NCBI RefSeq assembly: GCF_039888675.1
Contig: NZ_JBDQQR010000002.1
Location: 658,001 to 722,000 of the forward strand
Direction of reading: 5' to 3'
Length of the DNA: 64,000 nucleotides
Source: Mesorhizobium sp. CAU 1732
GTDB lineage: Bacteria > Pseudomonadota > Alphaproteobacteria > Rhizobiales > Rhizobiaceae
Each line of letters starts with the position of its first letter. Position 1 is the stretch's first letter. Positions 8,333 through 47,154 of the stretch are shown in pieces. Both the position numbers and the translations under genes were made by a program. Under the pieces are notes generated by a model. The model saw only the letters and a list, made by a program, of their open reading frames with translations. It made no database searches and was not told the DNA's origin.

Positions 8333-8416
8333 TGACATAACATGGCGTGTCATCGGGATGAGATGTCATCCGTGCCCATCGTCTAATGTTGTGGCCCGGC
8401 GCGAATTGGTAATAAT
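8333..8416 (+). promoter_or_regulatory. Candidate acs control region: TGTCA half-site array and promoter
   Basis: The 299-base gap between usg and acs holds three TGTCA-type half sites: an inverted one (TGACAT at 8333-8338) and two direct copies of TGTCATC at 8348-8354 and 8364-8370, 16 bases apart. A promoter-like pair follows, TTGTGG at 8389-8394 and AATAAT at 8411-8416 with a 16-base spacer. The regular spacing suggests a regulator binding one face of the helix. I cannot name the regulator, and the rest of the gap shows nothing else. Confidence 0.35.
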
Positions 8417-8493
8417 GCGCGCGATACAGGGCGGCGACAGTCCGCGCACCGGCTGGCGACAGGCCGGCAGAACGATCCGGGAAGGAAGAGTGC

Positions 8494-10449
8494 ATGTCCG
8501 AGGTAAAGCTTCATCGTGTCCAGCCTGCATGGAAGAAGGACGCGCTGATCGACAACGACACCTATCAGAAATGGTATCGCGACAGCATTTCCAACCCCGA
8601 TAAATTCTGGGGCAAGCACGGCAAGCGCATCGACTGGATGAAGCCCTACACCAAGGTCAAGAACACGTCGTTCGACGGCAAAGTGTCGATCAAATGGTTC
8701 GAGGACGGCCAGACCAACGTCTCGGTGAACTGTATCGACCGCCATCTCAAGAAGCGCGGAAACCAGGTCGCGATCATCTGGGAAGGCGACAACCCGTATG
8801 ACGACAAGAAGATCACCTATAACGAGCTCTACGAGCACGTCTGCCGCCTCGCCAACGTGATGAAGAAGCACGGTGTGAAGAAGGGCGACCGCGTCACCAT
8901 CTACATGCCAATGATCCCCGAGGCGACCTATGCGATGCTCGCCTGCGCCCGCATCGGCGCGATCCATTCCGTGGTCTTCGGCGGCTTCTCGCCCGACGCT
9001 CTGGCGGGCCGCATCGTCGATTGCGAATCCACTTTCGTCATCACGGCCGACGAGGGTTTGCGCGGCGGTAAGCCGATCCCGCTGAAGGAGAACACCGACA
9101 AGGCGATCGATATCGCCGCGCGCCATCACGTGAAGGTCGAGAATGTTCTGATCGTGCGCCGCACCGGCGGCAAGATCGGCTGGGCCGATGGCCGCGACCT
9201 CTGGTATCACGACGAAATGGCCTCCGTTAAGCCCGACTGCAAGCCGGAGAAGATGAAGGCCGAAGACCCCCTCTTCATCCTCTACACGTCGGGCTCGACC
9301 GGCAAGCCGAAGGGCGTGCTGCACACCACCGGCGGCTATCTCGTCTATGTCTCGATGACGCACCAATACGTCTTCGACTATCACGACGGAGACATCTACT
9401 GGTGCACCGCCGATGTCGGCTGGGTGACGGGCCACAGCTATATCGTCTACGGCCCGCTCGCCAACGGCGCGACGACCCTGATGTTCGAGGGCGTGCCGAA
9501 CTACCCGTCCGCCTCGCGCTTCTGGGAGGTCATCGACAAGCACAAGGTCAACATCTTCTACACCGCCCCCACCGCCCTCCGCGCCCTGATGGGCGCTGGC
9601 GACGCGCATGTGAAGAAGACCTCGCGCAAGAGCCTGCGTATTCTGGGCTCGGTCGGCGAACCGATCAACCCGGAAGCCTGGGAGTGGTATTACAAGGTCG
9701 TCGGCAACAAGAAGATTCCGATCGTCGATACATGGTGGCAGACCGAGACCGGCGGCATCCTTATCACGCCGCTGCCGGGCGCGACCGACCTGAAGGCCGG
9801 CTCGGCGACGCGTCCGTTCTTCGGCGTCCAGCCGCAACTCGTCGACGGCGAAGGCAAGGTTCTCGAAGGGGCCGCCGACGGCAATCTCTGCATCGCCGAT
9901 TCCTGGCCGGGCCAGATGCGCACGGTCTATGGCGATCACGAGCGGTTCATCCAGACCTACTTCGCGACCTACAAGGGCAAGTACTTCACCGGCGACGGCT
10001 GCCGGCGGGACAAGGACGGCTATTACTGGATCACGGGCCGCGTGGACGACGTGCTGAACGTGTCGGGCCACCGCATGGGCACGGCGGAAGTCGAGTCGGC
10101 GCTGGTCAGCCACGACAAGGTCTCGGAGGCAGCCGTCGTCGGCTATCCGCATGACATCAAGGGCCAGGGCATCTACTGCTATGTGACCCTGATGGCCGGT
10201 GAGCAGGGCTCGGACGCCCTGAAGAAGGAACTCGTGGCCCATGTCCGCAAGGAGATCGGCCCGATCGCCTCGCCTGACCTGATTCAGTTCTCGCCCGGCC
10301 TGCCCAAAACCCGCTCCGGTAAGATCATGCGCCGCATCCTGCGCAAGATCGCCGAGGACGATTTCGGCGCCCTGGGCGACACCTCTACACTTGCGGATCC
10401 GGCGGTCGTCGACGATCTGGTCGAGAACCGCCAGAACAAGAAGAAGTAA
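8494..10449 (+). CDS. acs: Acetyl-CoA synthetase
   Basis: AMP-forming acetate:CoA ligase, 651 residues, the usual length. It activates acetate to acetyl-CoA through acetyl-AMP, allowing growth on acetate and recycling of overflow acetate. The phosphate-binding loop [11 protein letters not shown] lies at about residues 263-273; WWQTETGG and YFTGDG follow. The catalytic lysine K610 is in [12 protein letters not shown], the site that protein acetyltransferases modify in characterised Acs enzymes. GGAAGG precedes the ATG. No terminator lies directly after the stop; the next strong one is at 10665, after a small ORF element. Confidence 0.97.
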
Positions 10450-10514
10450 GCCCATGCGCAGGGGGTTGCACTGCGACGGAAACCGACCCACATTGGGGTC
10501 GTGTTCAACGAACT

Positions 10515-10529
10515 GAAAGGAGGTGATCC
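10515..10529 (+). promoter_or_regulatory. Extended Shine-Dalgarno complementary to the 16S rRNA tail
   Basis: GAAAGGAGGTGATCC is the exact reverse complement of the last 15 bases of the conserved 16S rRNA 3' end (GGATCACCTCCTTTC). Ordinary ribosome binding sites pair over 4-7 bases. Its AGGAGG core ends seven bases before the ATG at 10531. It could also pair with GGATCGTCCTTTC at 10569-10581, inside the ORF it serves: seven pairs plus five pairs around a small internal loop. Confidence 0.8.
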
Positions 10530-10530
10530 A

Positions 10531-10599
10531 ATGTCGAGTGATTCCATGTTCCGTAGCGTGGTCCCGGCGGATCGTCCTTTCGGGAAGCAGTCTTCCTGA
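10531..10599 (+). CDS. 22-residue leader-like peptide with a 16S-tail mimic
   Basis: A short ORF encoding MSSDSMFRSVVPADRPFGKQ followed by SS, placed behind an extraordinary ribosome binding site and followed within 70 bases by a strong terminator. The peptide has no signal sequence or membrane segment. Codons 13-17 contain GGATCGTCCTTTC, close to the 16S rRNA 3' tail and able to fold back on the Shine-Dalgarno region. A second hairpin, GGAAG-CAGT-CTTCC (10583-10596), covers the end of the ORF and competes with part of that fold. I recognise this as looking conserved among rhizobia but cannot attach a name or function. The RNA may matter more than the peptide. Confidence 0.55.
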   Translation: MSSDSMFRSVVPADRPFGKQSS

Positions 10600-10664
10600 C
10601 AGGCGCGTGAGGCGCGGCTGGTAGTTACCTACCGCCACGGGTCGCGCCACGAACGGAAACACGG
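10600..10664 (+). ncRNA. Structured RNA segment between small ORF and terminator
   Basis: Downstream of the 22-codon ORF the sequence can form a closed structure. GGCGCG at 10611-10616 (a second copy lies at 10602-10607) pairs with CGCGCC at 10643-10648. Between them GGTAG-TTAC-CTACC forms a five-pair hairpin at 10620-10633. Together with the upstream ORF and the terminator this would be a compact RNA of about 180-200 bases. Whether it has its own promoter is unclear: TTGCAC about 40 bases upstream of the ribosome binding site is only a weak -35 candidate. It may instead be the 3' part of the acs transcript. Confidence 0.4.
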
Positions 10665-10695
10665 GGGCCGCTCTTCGGAGCGGCCCTTTGTTTTT
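10665..10695 (+). terminator. Intrinsic terminator of the small RNA element
   Basis: GGGCCGCTC-TTCG-GAGCGGCCC forms a nine-pair stem with a stable TTCG loop, followed by TTTGTTTTT. It ends the acs/small-ORF transcription unit before the convergent TadG-like gene. Confidence 0.9.
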
Positions 10696-10716: not shown

Positions 10717-12105
10717 TTATTGTGTCAGAGCAAGGCGTTCGACGTTGCGGGCAATGGTCATGAAGGCGTCGTTCAACTCTTCGCCGCTGGATGTCTCGTA
10801 GTAGTGCTTCAACGAGCCGGTGTCGGCCGAGGCACAGTTCTTCATGACGTTCCGGGCATTGTTGCTGTCAAGCTTGAAACCGATCGTGAAGACCTCGATT
10901 CCGTCTGCCTTCATCCGATCGCAGAGAGATTCGGCATAAGAGCGCGACTTGCTGTCCTGCCTGCGCACGGCTTTCTCGTCTCCCGCAACATCCGCATGCG
11001 CCGTGTTGAACGCGCCATCGGTCATGAGGATCGCAATTTTCGCGACTTCCTTCGGATCCGCGTCGGCAGGGCCGTCTCCCAAGCCCGCCTTCTGGATCGC
11101 GGGCCGCCATTTCTGCGAAAGCATGTAGTAGGTCCACTGAACACCGATGGCGCCTGCGGTGTATCCAGCAACGGAAAAGTCGTCGATCTGCTTTTTCAAG
11201 GCCGTCGCATCGGGGCTTAGCGGCTTGAGAACAGCCTTGGCGCAACTGTTCAACCTGTCGTCGCGGTTTACCTTTGCAAGGTAACGCTGGCCGTCCTTGC
11301 GCTCGCGCACCGCGTCTGGCGCATCGTCACTGAAGTCGGCCTTCAGATTCACGTCCTTGCGTTCGGTCGCGCAATTGTTGTCCTGCTTGCCGGTGTTCGC
11401 GTCGATTTCCGCTTTCTTGGCATCCATGGGTGGCGGCAGGTCGGACCCGCCCTTTCGCTCAACGAAGACCACGTCCTTGGCAAGCGCACCGACATTGACG
11501 CCGTCCGAGTAAGGCACGAGTGCAATTCTTACCCGCGGATTGGTCTGGTTCTGCCCCTTGGTTAGCGCATCCACGGCGTTCTTCGCGGCAACTTTCAAAT
11601 CCTTGATCTTCTGGCCGCCCATGGAGTCGGTCACATCCAGCATCATCGCGATCTCGATCTTCTTGTCCGAATAGAGCGAAGCCGACTGCGCCGTGATCGT
11701 CTGCCGGTTCGCGGCCCCGAACAGCGGGAAGGCGACGTCGAGGATGATGCTCGCCTCGGCGCTGACCGTTCCGCGTGCCTTGTCGATCACGAGGCTGTCG
11801 AGCGTGATGCGGTCGGCATCGGCAAACGCACGGCCGCCATTGGCGAGCAGGAACGCTTCCACCATCCCCCTCGCATCCTTCTCGGCGATCACGCCCGTGG
11901 TAAGGTCGCGCGCGGTCGAGGTGACGGCGGAATCGAGCGCGGCCAGAAGGTTCGAACGCACGATCGTCATCTGCGCAATGTTCAGCCCGTATCCGGCCGA
12001 CAGCGCCAGAAGCGGCGTGACGATCGCCATCATCATGCCGAAATTGCCGCGCCGGTCGCGCCGGAACGCCTGTGCCGCTTTCATGATCGTCGTGCCTGCC
12101 CGCAT
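10717..12105 (-). CDS. TadG-like pilus protein with von Willebrand factor A domain
   Basis: A 462-residue protein with the Tad architecture: a short basic start, FRRDRRGNFGMMMA and a transmembrane helix at about 23-45 (TadE/TadG-like), then a VWA domain from about residue 150. The metal site is D157-V-T159-D-S161, a DxTxS variant of DxSxS, with a later MTDGAF strand. TadG-like proteins belong to Flp/Tad tight-adherence systems, but no other tad gene is in the window, so it is an orphan here. GGGAG lies six bases before the ATG at 12105, which supports that start over a second Met at residue 8. Confidence 0.85.
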   Translation of the reverse strand: MRAGTTIMKAAQAFRRDRRGNFGMMMAIVTPLLALSAGYGLNIAQMTIVRSNLLAALDSAVTSTARDLTTGVIAEKDARGMVEAFLLANGGRAFADADRITLDSLVIDKARGTVSAEASIILDVAFPLFGAANRQTITAQSASLYSDKKIEIAMMLDVTDSMGGQKIKDLKVAAKNAVDALTKGQNQTNPRVRIALVPYSDGVNVGALAKDVVFVERKGGSDLPPPMDAKKAEIDANTGKQDNNCATERKDVNLKADFSDDAPDAVRERKDGQRYLAKVNRDDRLNSCAKAVLKPLSPDATALKKQIDDFSVAGYTAGAIGVQWTYYMLSQKWRPAIQKAGLGDGPADADPKEVAKIAILMTDGAFNTAHADVAGDEKAVRRQDSKSRSYAESLCDRMKADGIEVFTIGFKLDSNNARNVMKNCASADTGSLKHYYETSSGEELNDAFMTIARNVERLALTQ

Positions 12106-47070: not shown

Positions 47071-47154
47071 AAGTTCCTCTACTGCTTCTGTCCCGTCGGG
47101 TGTCGGGCATACACCCAGGCGCCGCTGGCGGGACTCCAGCATGCCTGACAGTGA

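Follow-up and report, generated by a model that had tools for sequence, protein, structure and literature searches.

The window, a stretch of 64,000 nucleotides from Mesorhizobium sp. CAU 1732, holds a small element between the acetyl-CoA synthetase gene acs and a von Willebrand-domain gene of the opposite strand. The two neighbours and the parts of the element are the following:

8494 to 10449, plus strand: acs, acetyl-CoA synthetase (Pfam PF00501, PF13193, PF16177), the upstream neighbour, outside the element
10466 to 10494, plus strand: putative own promoter (TTGCAC at 10466-10471, a 17-nt spacer, CACATT at 10489-10494), between acs and the element
10503 to 10510, plus strand: leader GTTCAACG, unpaired in the predicted open fold
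10515 to 10529, plus strand: extended Shine-Dalgarno sequence (SD) GAAAGGAGGTGATCC, full complement of the 16S 3' tail (16 nt with A10530)
10531 to 10599, plus strand: 22-codon ORF MSSDSMFRSVVPADRPFGKQSS, with ATG at 10531 and TGA at 10597-10599
10538 to 10564, plus strand: 5' strand of P1, a long-range helix of the predicted open fold, at the start of the ORF
10569 to 10581, plus strand: 16S-tail mimic GGATCGTCCTTTC, predicted partner of the SD in the closed fold
10580 to 10599, plus strand: hairpin H2 with a CARY loop (CAGT in the window), seen by covariation; its 3' arm holds the stop codon
10602 to 10648, plus strand: closed stem H3 (GGCGCG/CGCGCC) of the predicted folds, its 3' arm in common with P1
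10640 to 10662, plus strand: 3' strand of P1, ending in GAACGGAAACAC, a conserved block directly before the terminator
10663 to 10688, plus strand: intrinsic terminator from a terminator scan, with 11 pairs, a TTCG loop and a T-rich tail
10717 to 12105, minus strand: von Willebrand-domain gene, the neighbour beyond the terminator

The original prediction had placed a full reverse complement of the 16S 3' tail before a 22-codon ORF, and this is exact, with correct coordinates. The competing hairpin, closed stem and TTCG-loop terminator that it put after the mimic can all be located as well (10583-10596; 10602-10648, as predicted by folding; and 10663-10688). The competing hairpin is the core of H2, which can be extended to 8 pairs (10580-10599). 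A 201-base stretch here folds better than 200 of 200 shuffled versions (z -3.9), and a terminator-like hairpin is found by script in 238 of 251 distinct elements from other genomes, a set that comprises 280 elements minus 20 duplicates, 4 that were too short and 5 with an ORF of more than 40 aa (none of them of the MSS type to which the window belongs). A 759-codon open frame on the minus strand (8383-10662) spans acs and the element; it is probably a shadow frame of GC-rich DNA.

Among 56 class-A relatives, CTTGC and CCCAC.TT blocks are conserved at the place of the putative promoter, where a generic sigma-70 scan gave nothing. Conserved promoter-like blocks between acs and the SD point to a transcript of the element's own, which would start near 10501 and is apparently stand-alone. 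Its leader has a recurring mark, since in 213 of the 251 elements the SD is preceded, at a distance of at most 16 nt, by CAAC.

The position of the element, about 65 nt behind acs, invites the reading that it is a 3'-UTR element or a regulator of acs, and acs does lie upstream on the same strand at no fewer than 62 of 119 MSS loci of the family (about 1.5 kb upstream being covered) and at 9 of 23 other MSS loci. It is missing near the loci elsewhere (0 of 13 in Rhodobacterales, 0 of 32 in sphingomonads, 0 of 7 in Bradyrhizobium, 0 of 30 others and 0 of 9 further loci of the order), save at 2 of 44 loci of the VSH type, where it is 3.6 and 5.5 kb away. Close upstream placement of acs is thus confined to the rhizobial, MSS-type lineage. 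With synteny so limited and promoter-like blocks lying between acs and the element, regulation of acs transcripts, which had been among the roles originally proposed, is unsupported; it was rejected on synteny, and we regard it as very improbable. No neighbour gene common widely across clades was seen in its place, in surveys where the ORF caller favours antisense frames in GC-rich DNA.

The SD matches its 15 nucleotides (10515-10529) with zero mismatches, and the sequence occurs a single time in the genome of 5.44 Mb, its reversed-pattern control occurring 0 times. No 16S gene was found in the strain's own assembly. Of 22 genomes searched, just two, members of the window's family, had a readable 16S 3' end, GGCTGGATCACCTCCTTTC, and from these the complementarity comes to 16 nt when A10530 is counted. 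The scarcity of 16S genes in the assemblies probably reflects their being masked or collapsed. The predicted duplex of SD and 16S tail has an energy of -29.7 kcal/mol, versus -9.2 for AGGAGG. Some genera carry a AAAGGAAGG form of the SD. A variant 16S tail that would match such SDs was considered and rejected: the usual tail is present in G592, the sole such genome with a readable 16S end, so no covariation of SD and 16S tail is seen. Nine loci have an extra A in the SD (AAAGGAAGGTGATCC: L300, L301, L302, L305, L306 and L308; L264, L266 and L268). A copy of the tail itself also turns up: L101, from a Rhodospirillaceae genome, has an almost perfect one, GGATCACCTCC, in the 3' untranslated part of the element. 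L040 has ACCTCCTTTC in the same part.

Elements of this kind are widespread. DNA searches matched 63 of 100 relatives, many matches covering the SD block alone. At family level 158 of 394 genomes contain the exact pattern GAAAGGAGGTGATCCNRTG (the 15-mer with the start), and at class level 56 of 385 do, while its reversed control is present in 0 among the genomes listed. A covariance model built from 105 aligned elements (105 of 115 references listed) has matches in 87 of 109 genera of the family, with 189 of 247 genomes matched, or 180 of 229 when only good ones are counted; the homologues on which the original prediction had staked itself abound. There is one match per family genome, the sole exception being G669 with two. 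In an order-level draw 103 of 199 genomes match, 72 of them along roughly the whole model and 31 along just 31-46 nt, which is the SD block. Scanning named genomes gave at least 119 stretches. Among the 80 matches listed by title nearly all are alphaproteobacteria, the two exceptions by name being a Phycisphaerales and a betaproteobacterial metagenome bin, with three titled only Proteobacteria. The likeness to rRNA, taken alone, could suggest a chance resemblance or an rRNA-derived artefact; a unique genome site conserved in so many genomes refutes this, and we give it practically no credence.

The ORFs differ by clade. They have 14 aa from GTG in Bradyrhizobium, 18 aa in Rhodobacterales, mostly 18 aa in sphingomonads, 18-26 aa in the VSH type and 20-31 aa in the MSS type. 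The peptides look unrelated between clades, and MSS or VSH starts recur. Among the named loci, the window-type peptide is found in Mesorhizobium, Phyllobacteriaceae, Chelativorans, Corticibacterium and similar. Four extended-SD elements (L112 and L155; L073 and L171) have ORFs of 56-59 codons with signal-peptide-like starts (MSHGA... and VRISAF...), unlike the short ORFs elsewhere.

A lasting structural feature inside the ORF is H2. Candidates were sought 45-66 nt after the A of AUG, with the best pairing chosen, and one is present in 138 of 140 distinct MSS-type elements, which represent 103 different motifs. The arms pair in 709 of 824 cells, versus 559 (sd 11) with the arms shuffled and 601 in the highest of 2000 shuffles; the sequences being related, such shuffle tests overstate significance. 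In the alignment 95.4% of the cells are paired, with changes on both sides in 5 of 6 pairs, and RNAalifold also predicts the hairpin from 105 relatives. The loop starts 51-61 nt after AUG, and when the upper limit of the search is lifted 104 of 106 motifs fall in the same range. Its frame relative to AUG is 0 in 114 elements, 2 in 20 and 1 in 4. A held-out set was formed of 40 elements fetched that were absent from the alignment, of which 3 had no recognisable SD and 37 were usable. Here 33 motifs pair in 221 of 264 cells versus 174 (sd 5.5), in elements that had been found by a model containing H2; 2 of the 37 are without a hairpin candidate. As far as these alignments go, H2 covaries strongly and holds its distance from AUG whatever the reading frame, a feature that is new here. 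The four inner pairs almost always have a purine on the left and a pyrimidine on the right, while the outer pairs flip freely. This bias preserves the right arm's capacity for pairing with the SD, which several predicted folds display.

The mimic has fared differently. In the window its duplex with the SD is predicted at -14.7 kcal/mol, and ensemble prediction over 10501-10692 puts the pairing of its two stems with the SD at 0.70-0.81 and 0.94-0.97. Across 105 relatives, 81% of cells are paired in the GGATC half and 58% in the CCTTTC half, and the RNAalifold consensus of the same 105 is without the SD:mimic helix, having instead H2 and small local stems around the SD. When the three helices are scored as one structure, cells changed on both sides (109 versus 41) and the covariation score (0.273 versus 0.171) are above every shuffle, whereas pairs with both-side changes (7 versus 6.2) and further pair types (26 versus 24.6) are not above shuffles; the covariation signal of the three-helix structure, as read from these alignments, is that of H2. 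The original condition that relatives keep the mimic and its pairing thus holds in part only.

The GGRTY motif tells how far the mimic extends. It occurs in the ORF of 120 of 134 MSS elements (51 expected from shuffles), 27 of 42 VSH (14), 6 of 6 Bradyrhizobium (0.2) and 22 of 29 others (10), compared with 2 of 13 in Rhodobacterales (6.5 expected) and 12 of 27 in sphingomonads (11 expected). A single universal mimic was rejected for these last two groups, where the motif is not above expectation. The exact mimic is kept mainly in close relatives and seems to be a means of hiding the SD that belongs to one lineage. When the ORF alone is folded together with the SD, the predicted cost of opening the SD exceeds that in shuffles in 6 of 6 groups: 11.0 versus 7.1 kcal/mol in MSS (n=134), 11.0 versus 7.0 in sphingomonads (27), 9.6 versus 7.4 in VSH (42), 8.3 versus 6.0 in Rhodobacterales (13), 13.3 versus 7.4 in Bradyrhizobium (6) and 9.2 versus 6.8 in others (29). 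In the 37 held-out elements, mostly more distant ones, the SD is barely more hidden (7.5 versus 6.4 kcal/mol, mean rank 0.37), and GGRTY is present in 13. The lasting features are the SD, H2 and P1.

P1 is found in the consensus folds of several clades with differing sequences. It is stronger with the cognate pre-terminator block than with blocks of other clades or shuffled blocks, a preference that is least in the window's class A (mean ranks 0.25 and 0.26, versus 0.08-0.22 elsewhere). With the SD held open, P1 pairs at 0.34-0.58 versus 0.10-0.13 in shuffles in 6 of 6 groups, in a test for which 155 of the 251 elements were sampled and 138 measured with six shuffles each. Comparison of the groups thus shows a long-range helix likely to join the ORF to the pre-terminator block in all six, which is also new here. 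In the full-length RNAs covered by the same test, the predicted SD is freer than in shuffles in MSS (5.3 versus 6.7), sphingomonads (5.7 versus 7.4) and VSH (5.4 versus 7.1), because the long-range helix takes over; it is about even in the mixed rest (7.4 versus 6.6) and more hidden in Rhodobacterales (11.2 versus 6.7) and Bradyrhizobium (9.6 versus 6.6). The freer SD in the first three groups suggests that the SD may be hidden only while the RNA is nascent or once it is trimmed, or only in certain lineages.

In the window RNA the closed fold, with SD and mimic paired, is the predicted ground state, and opening the SD would cost 6.1 kcal/mol, the folding energies here and elsewhere being predictions that ignore kinetics and proteins. 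When the SD is open, the inner pairs of H2 are predicted to go from about 0.55 to 1.0, P1 forms, and leader, SD and AUG become bare. The SD:mimic pairing on one side and P1 with H2 on the other are therefore predicted, as another new result, to be alternative folds about 6 kcal/mol apart, and the extended SD could easily pay the opening cost by pairing with 16S rRNA. The switch proposed originally, between a self-sequestered form and one that grips the 30S subunit, agrees with the hiding of the SD in ORF-only folds of all groups and with the two predicted folds of the window RNA; it does not agree with the full-length RNAs of the three groups, out of six, whose SD is freer than in shuffles.

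What the ORF contributes is best seen from its variation. Diversity at codon positions 1, 2 and 3 is 0.25, 0.31 and 0.25 in the group with 23 aa, and it is similarly flat in eight other groups; third positions are not more variable than first and second ones, the pattern by which a micropeptide gene would be recognised. Ratios of nonsynonymous to synonymous changes, uncorrected for transition bias or relatedness, run from 1.6 to 4.9, versus 2.6 to 3.2 for unconstrained sequence, and are clearly below expectation in 4 of 9 groups (for example, 2.12 versus 3.15), so mild selection on the peptide is possible in some lineages. The end of the ORF is another matter. In 159 of 163 elements, reading from AUG meets its first stop 5-21 nt past the point where the H2 loop begins, and the same placement is found in 25 of the 26 elements that have H2 out of its usual frame. 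The two other frames have it in 3 and 9 of the 163, and shuffles in 8%; the 40-aa filter on ORFs removed no MSS element. With stop placement conserved and codon positions flat, selection seems to be for translation and its end point more than for the product. Across these sequences, then, the codon signal is weak or absent while stop placement appears conserved, and the tiny gene seems to matter for being translated, its peptide sequence mattering little; this too is new here. A micropeptide gene like any other, except that its ribosome-binding site is very strong, would account for an ORF that is kept open, for the recurring MSS or VSH starts and for the somewhat reduced nonsynonymous changes of the four groups. 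It would not account for codon positions that vary alike, for H2 persisting while its reading frame changes, or for the unrelated look of the peptides of different clades; we set it aside on the first two of these grounds, as quite improbable.

The element had been said to match no named RNA family. At Rfam's own cut-offs nothing is found there, but with open thresholds RF01867, the Caulobacter sRNA CC2171, matches the window RNA over its full length (1-159) at 36.6 bits, which does not reach the curated cut-off of 75 bits. The match (E 8.4e-6) is the sole one at E 0.001 in the strain's own genome. In 14 control genomes the family is found in Caulobacter vibrioides only. Among 11 relatives, 3 are above the cut-off (a Caulobacterales bin, Brevundimonas and a Rhizobium-titled bin), a sphingomonad, a Bradyrhizobium, a Rhodospirillaceae and a Rhodobacterales genome have one locus each below it, and the other four, all of MSS type, gave no match at E 0.001 in a larger search. 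The RF01867 consensus begins with CAACAAUCGAAAGGAGGUGAUCCAGUGUCUCAU, the same leader and SD, followed by a GUG start where the window has AUG. Its layout recurs in the window, where the RNA opens with an extended SD and start, closes with a terminator and is predicted to form P1. In the structure line of RF01867, as in the window's P1, a helix links the ORF start to the segment preceding the terminator. Posterior values are low in the middle of the alignment, where resolution is poor. CC2171 is an sRNA in Rfam, and its first part reads as an ORF from GUG.

The rreB and rreR RNAs of Hahn et al. 2017 are reportedly stand-alone small mRNAs of about 165 nt with a tiny ORF and an SD of 16-17 nt complementary to the 16S end, found in alphaproteobacteria including Rhizobiales. 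rreB is said to co-sediment strongly with 30S subunits, to be weakly translated and to be more stable as RNA without its start codon. The Bradyrhizobium loci (14 aa, GTG) agree with what is reported of rreB, and the Rhodobacterales loci (18 aa) with what is reported of rreR. In the window, GAAAGGAGGTGATCCA before the 22-codon ORF gives the at least 16 nt of complementarity to the 16S 3' end that reportedly mark the kind, with the 16S end taken from two relatives. The window element is unlike rreB and rreR in its 22 codons, its AUG, its H2, its acs neighbourhood and its peptide, which is not that of either RNA; peptides, however, vary by clade, and with no clear selection on them the identity of the peptide does not, in our view, define the kind. 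We conclude that CC2171, rreB, rreR and the window element are of one kind, the window holding a rhizobial member. Because the SD block that they share accounts for much of the RF01867 score, the rest of the RNA is likely, rather than proved, to be of common descent. The kind of RNA was already known and, as far as our searches show, had not previously been matched to the window element. A literature link between the Rfam "sRNA" CC2171 and the "small mRNA" rreB/rreR was not found in a coverage of mostly open papers without Hahn et al. 2017 (RNA Biol 14:1353, doi 10.1080/15476286.2016.1256534), nor was a description of this RNA found in the accessible parts of PMC10783764, PMC5082802, PMC10117765 and PMC9373788.

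The Rfam annotation of CC2171 raises the question of whether these RNAs act in trans, as base-pairing sRNAs with a target segment, such as the pre-terminator block, that translation bares or hides. The unit does have a terminator, and the block before it is conserved in the groups that were aligned. Internal pairing in P1 explains the block, however, and its sequence differs between clades, which makes action in trans rather unlikely.

Our preferred reading, to which we give somewhat more than an even chance, is that about 10501-10692 is a stand-alone small mRNA of the extended-SD kind that works as a ribosome-gated RNA switch. When no 30S subunit is free, the SD would pair with the 16S-tail mimic inside the ORF in the closed fold. 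In the open fold P1 and H2 would form, and leader, SD and AUG would be exposed. A free 30S subunit would capture the SD through 16 bp with 16S rRNA and lock the open fold, and a translating ribosome would melt P1 and H2 and halt on the 3' side of H2, a reset. As the ribosome melts these helices and stops at H2, the state of the RNA would report ribosome supply or initiation, with RNA stability, a target in trans or the holding back of 30S subunits as candidate outputs. The two folds and their energies are predicted, whereas refolding in the cell and 30S sensing are what we infer; putative ribosome sensing or decoy action is plausible. The results reported for rreB, in 30S co-sedimentation, weak translation and the effect of the start codon on stability, would fit the switch.

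The long SD might instead merely titrate or park free 30S subunits, the ORF being incidental. The strength of the predicted 16S duplex would suit such a decoy, as would the reportedly strong 30S co-sedimentation and weak translation of rreB. The ORF does not look incidental, since the AUG frame runs open to its stop past H2 even after frame shifts, far above the 8% expected, and a single gene copy per genome, with its one exception, would need very high expression; we consider the decoy unlikely, if still worth weighing. Returning to the ribosome-gated switch, a bolder and more tentative version is that there is one class-wide alphaproteobacterial sensor of ribosome supply with two exclusive folds, set when the 30S subunit is captured by a perfect complement of the 16S tail and reset by translation of an ORF that is almost unconstrained in sequence but has its end pinned to H2, and that CC2171, rreB and rreR are all this same device; this is possible, and we would sooner doubt it than believe it.

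Bacteria balance ribosome number with growth, and to our knowledge a dedicated RNA that reads free 30S subunits is not established. The RNA kind is usually single-copy, spread through the class and readily accessible in harmless laboratory strains. Through comparison, what was a vague "small mRNA" becomes a device that can be tested, its helices named, and translation is told apart from peptide, two things usually merged in sORF annotation. It also ties an Rfam "sRNA", CC2171, to the published "small mRNA" kind of rreB and rreR.

Among known systems, leader peptides and attenuators such as trpL have RNA folding controlled by the act of translation. Unlike trpL, the window element has no controlled downstream gene, its terminator being followed by a gene of the opposite strand. 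The nearest analogue in print among the readable sources would be rpsU of Flavobacteriales, in which an SD lengthened to as many as 13 bp in some organisms reads the state of the 30S subunit, in typically one gene per genome with such an SD, like the window element (PMC9976891). rpsU encodes the ribosomal protein bS21 and autoregulates it (PMC9976891), whereas the peptide of the window's kind varies across clades; the likeness is one of analogy and not of homology. In Staphylococcus aureus, SD helices extending towards the start codon, as the window's does, are predicted at about 30% of initiation sites, where, unlike the window's, they serve start selection (PMC13009471). SorY (RF02651) was rejected as a match, at 28.6 bits versus a cut-off of 111 and over the 3' half alone (10601-10693, the closed stem and terminator). 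Elsewhere in the window, Rfam RF00520 (ybhL leader) matches 47086-47147 on the minus strand at 56.7 bits, with a cut-off of 50.
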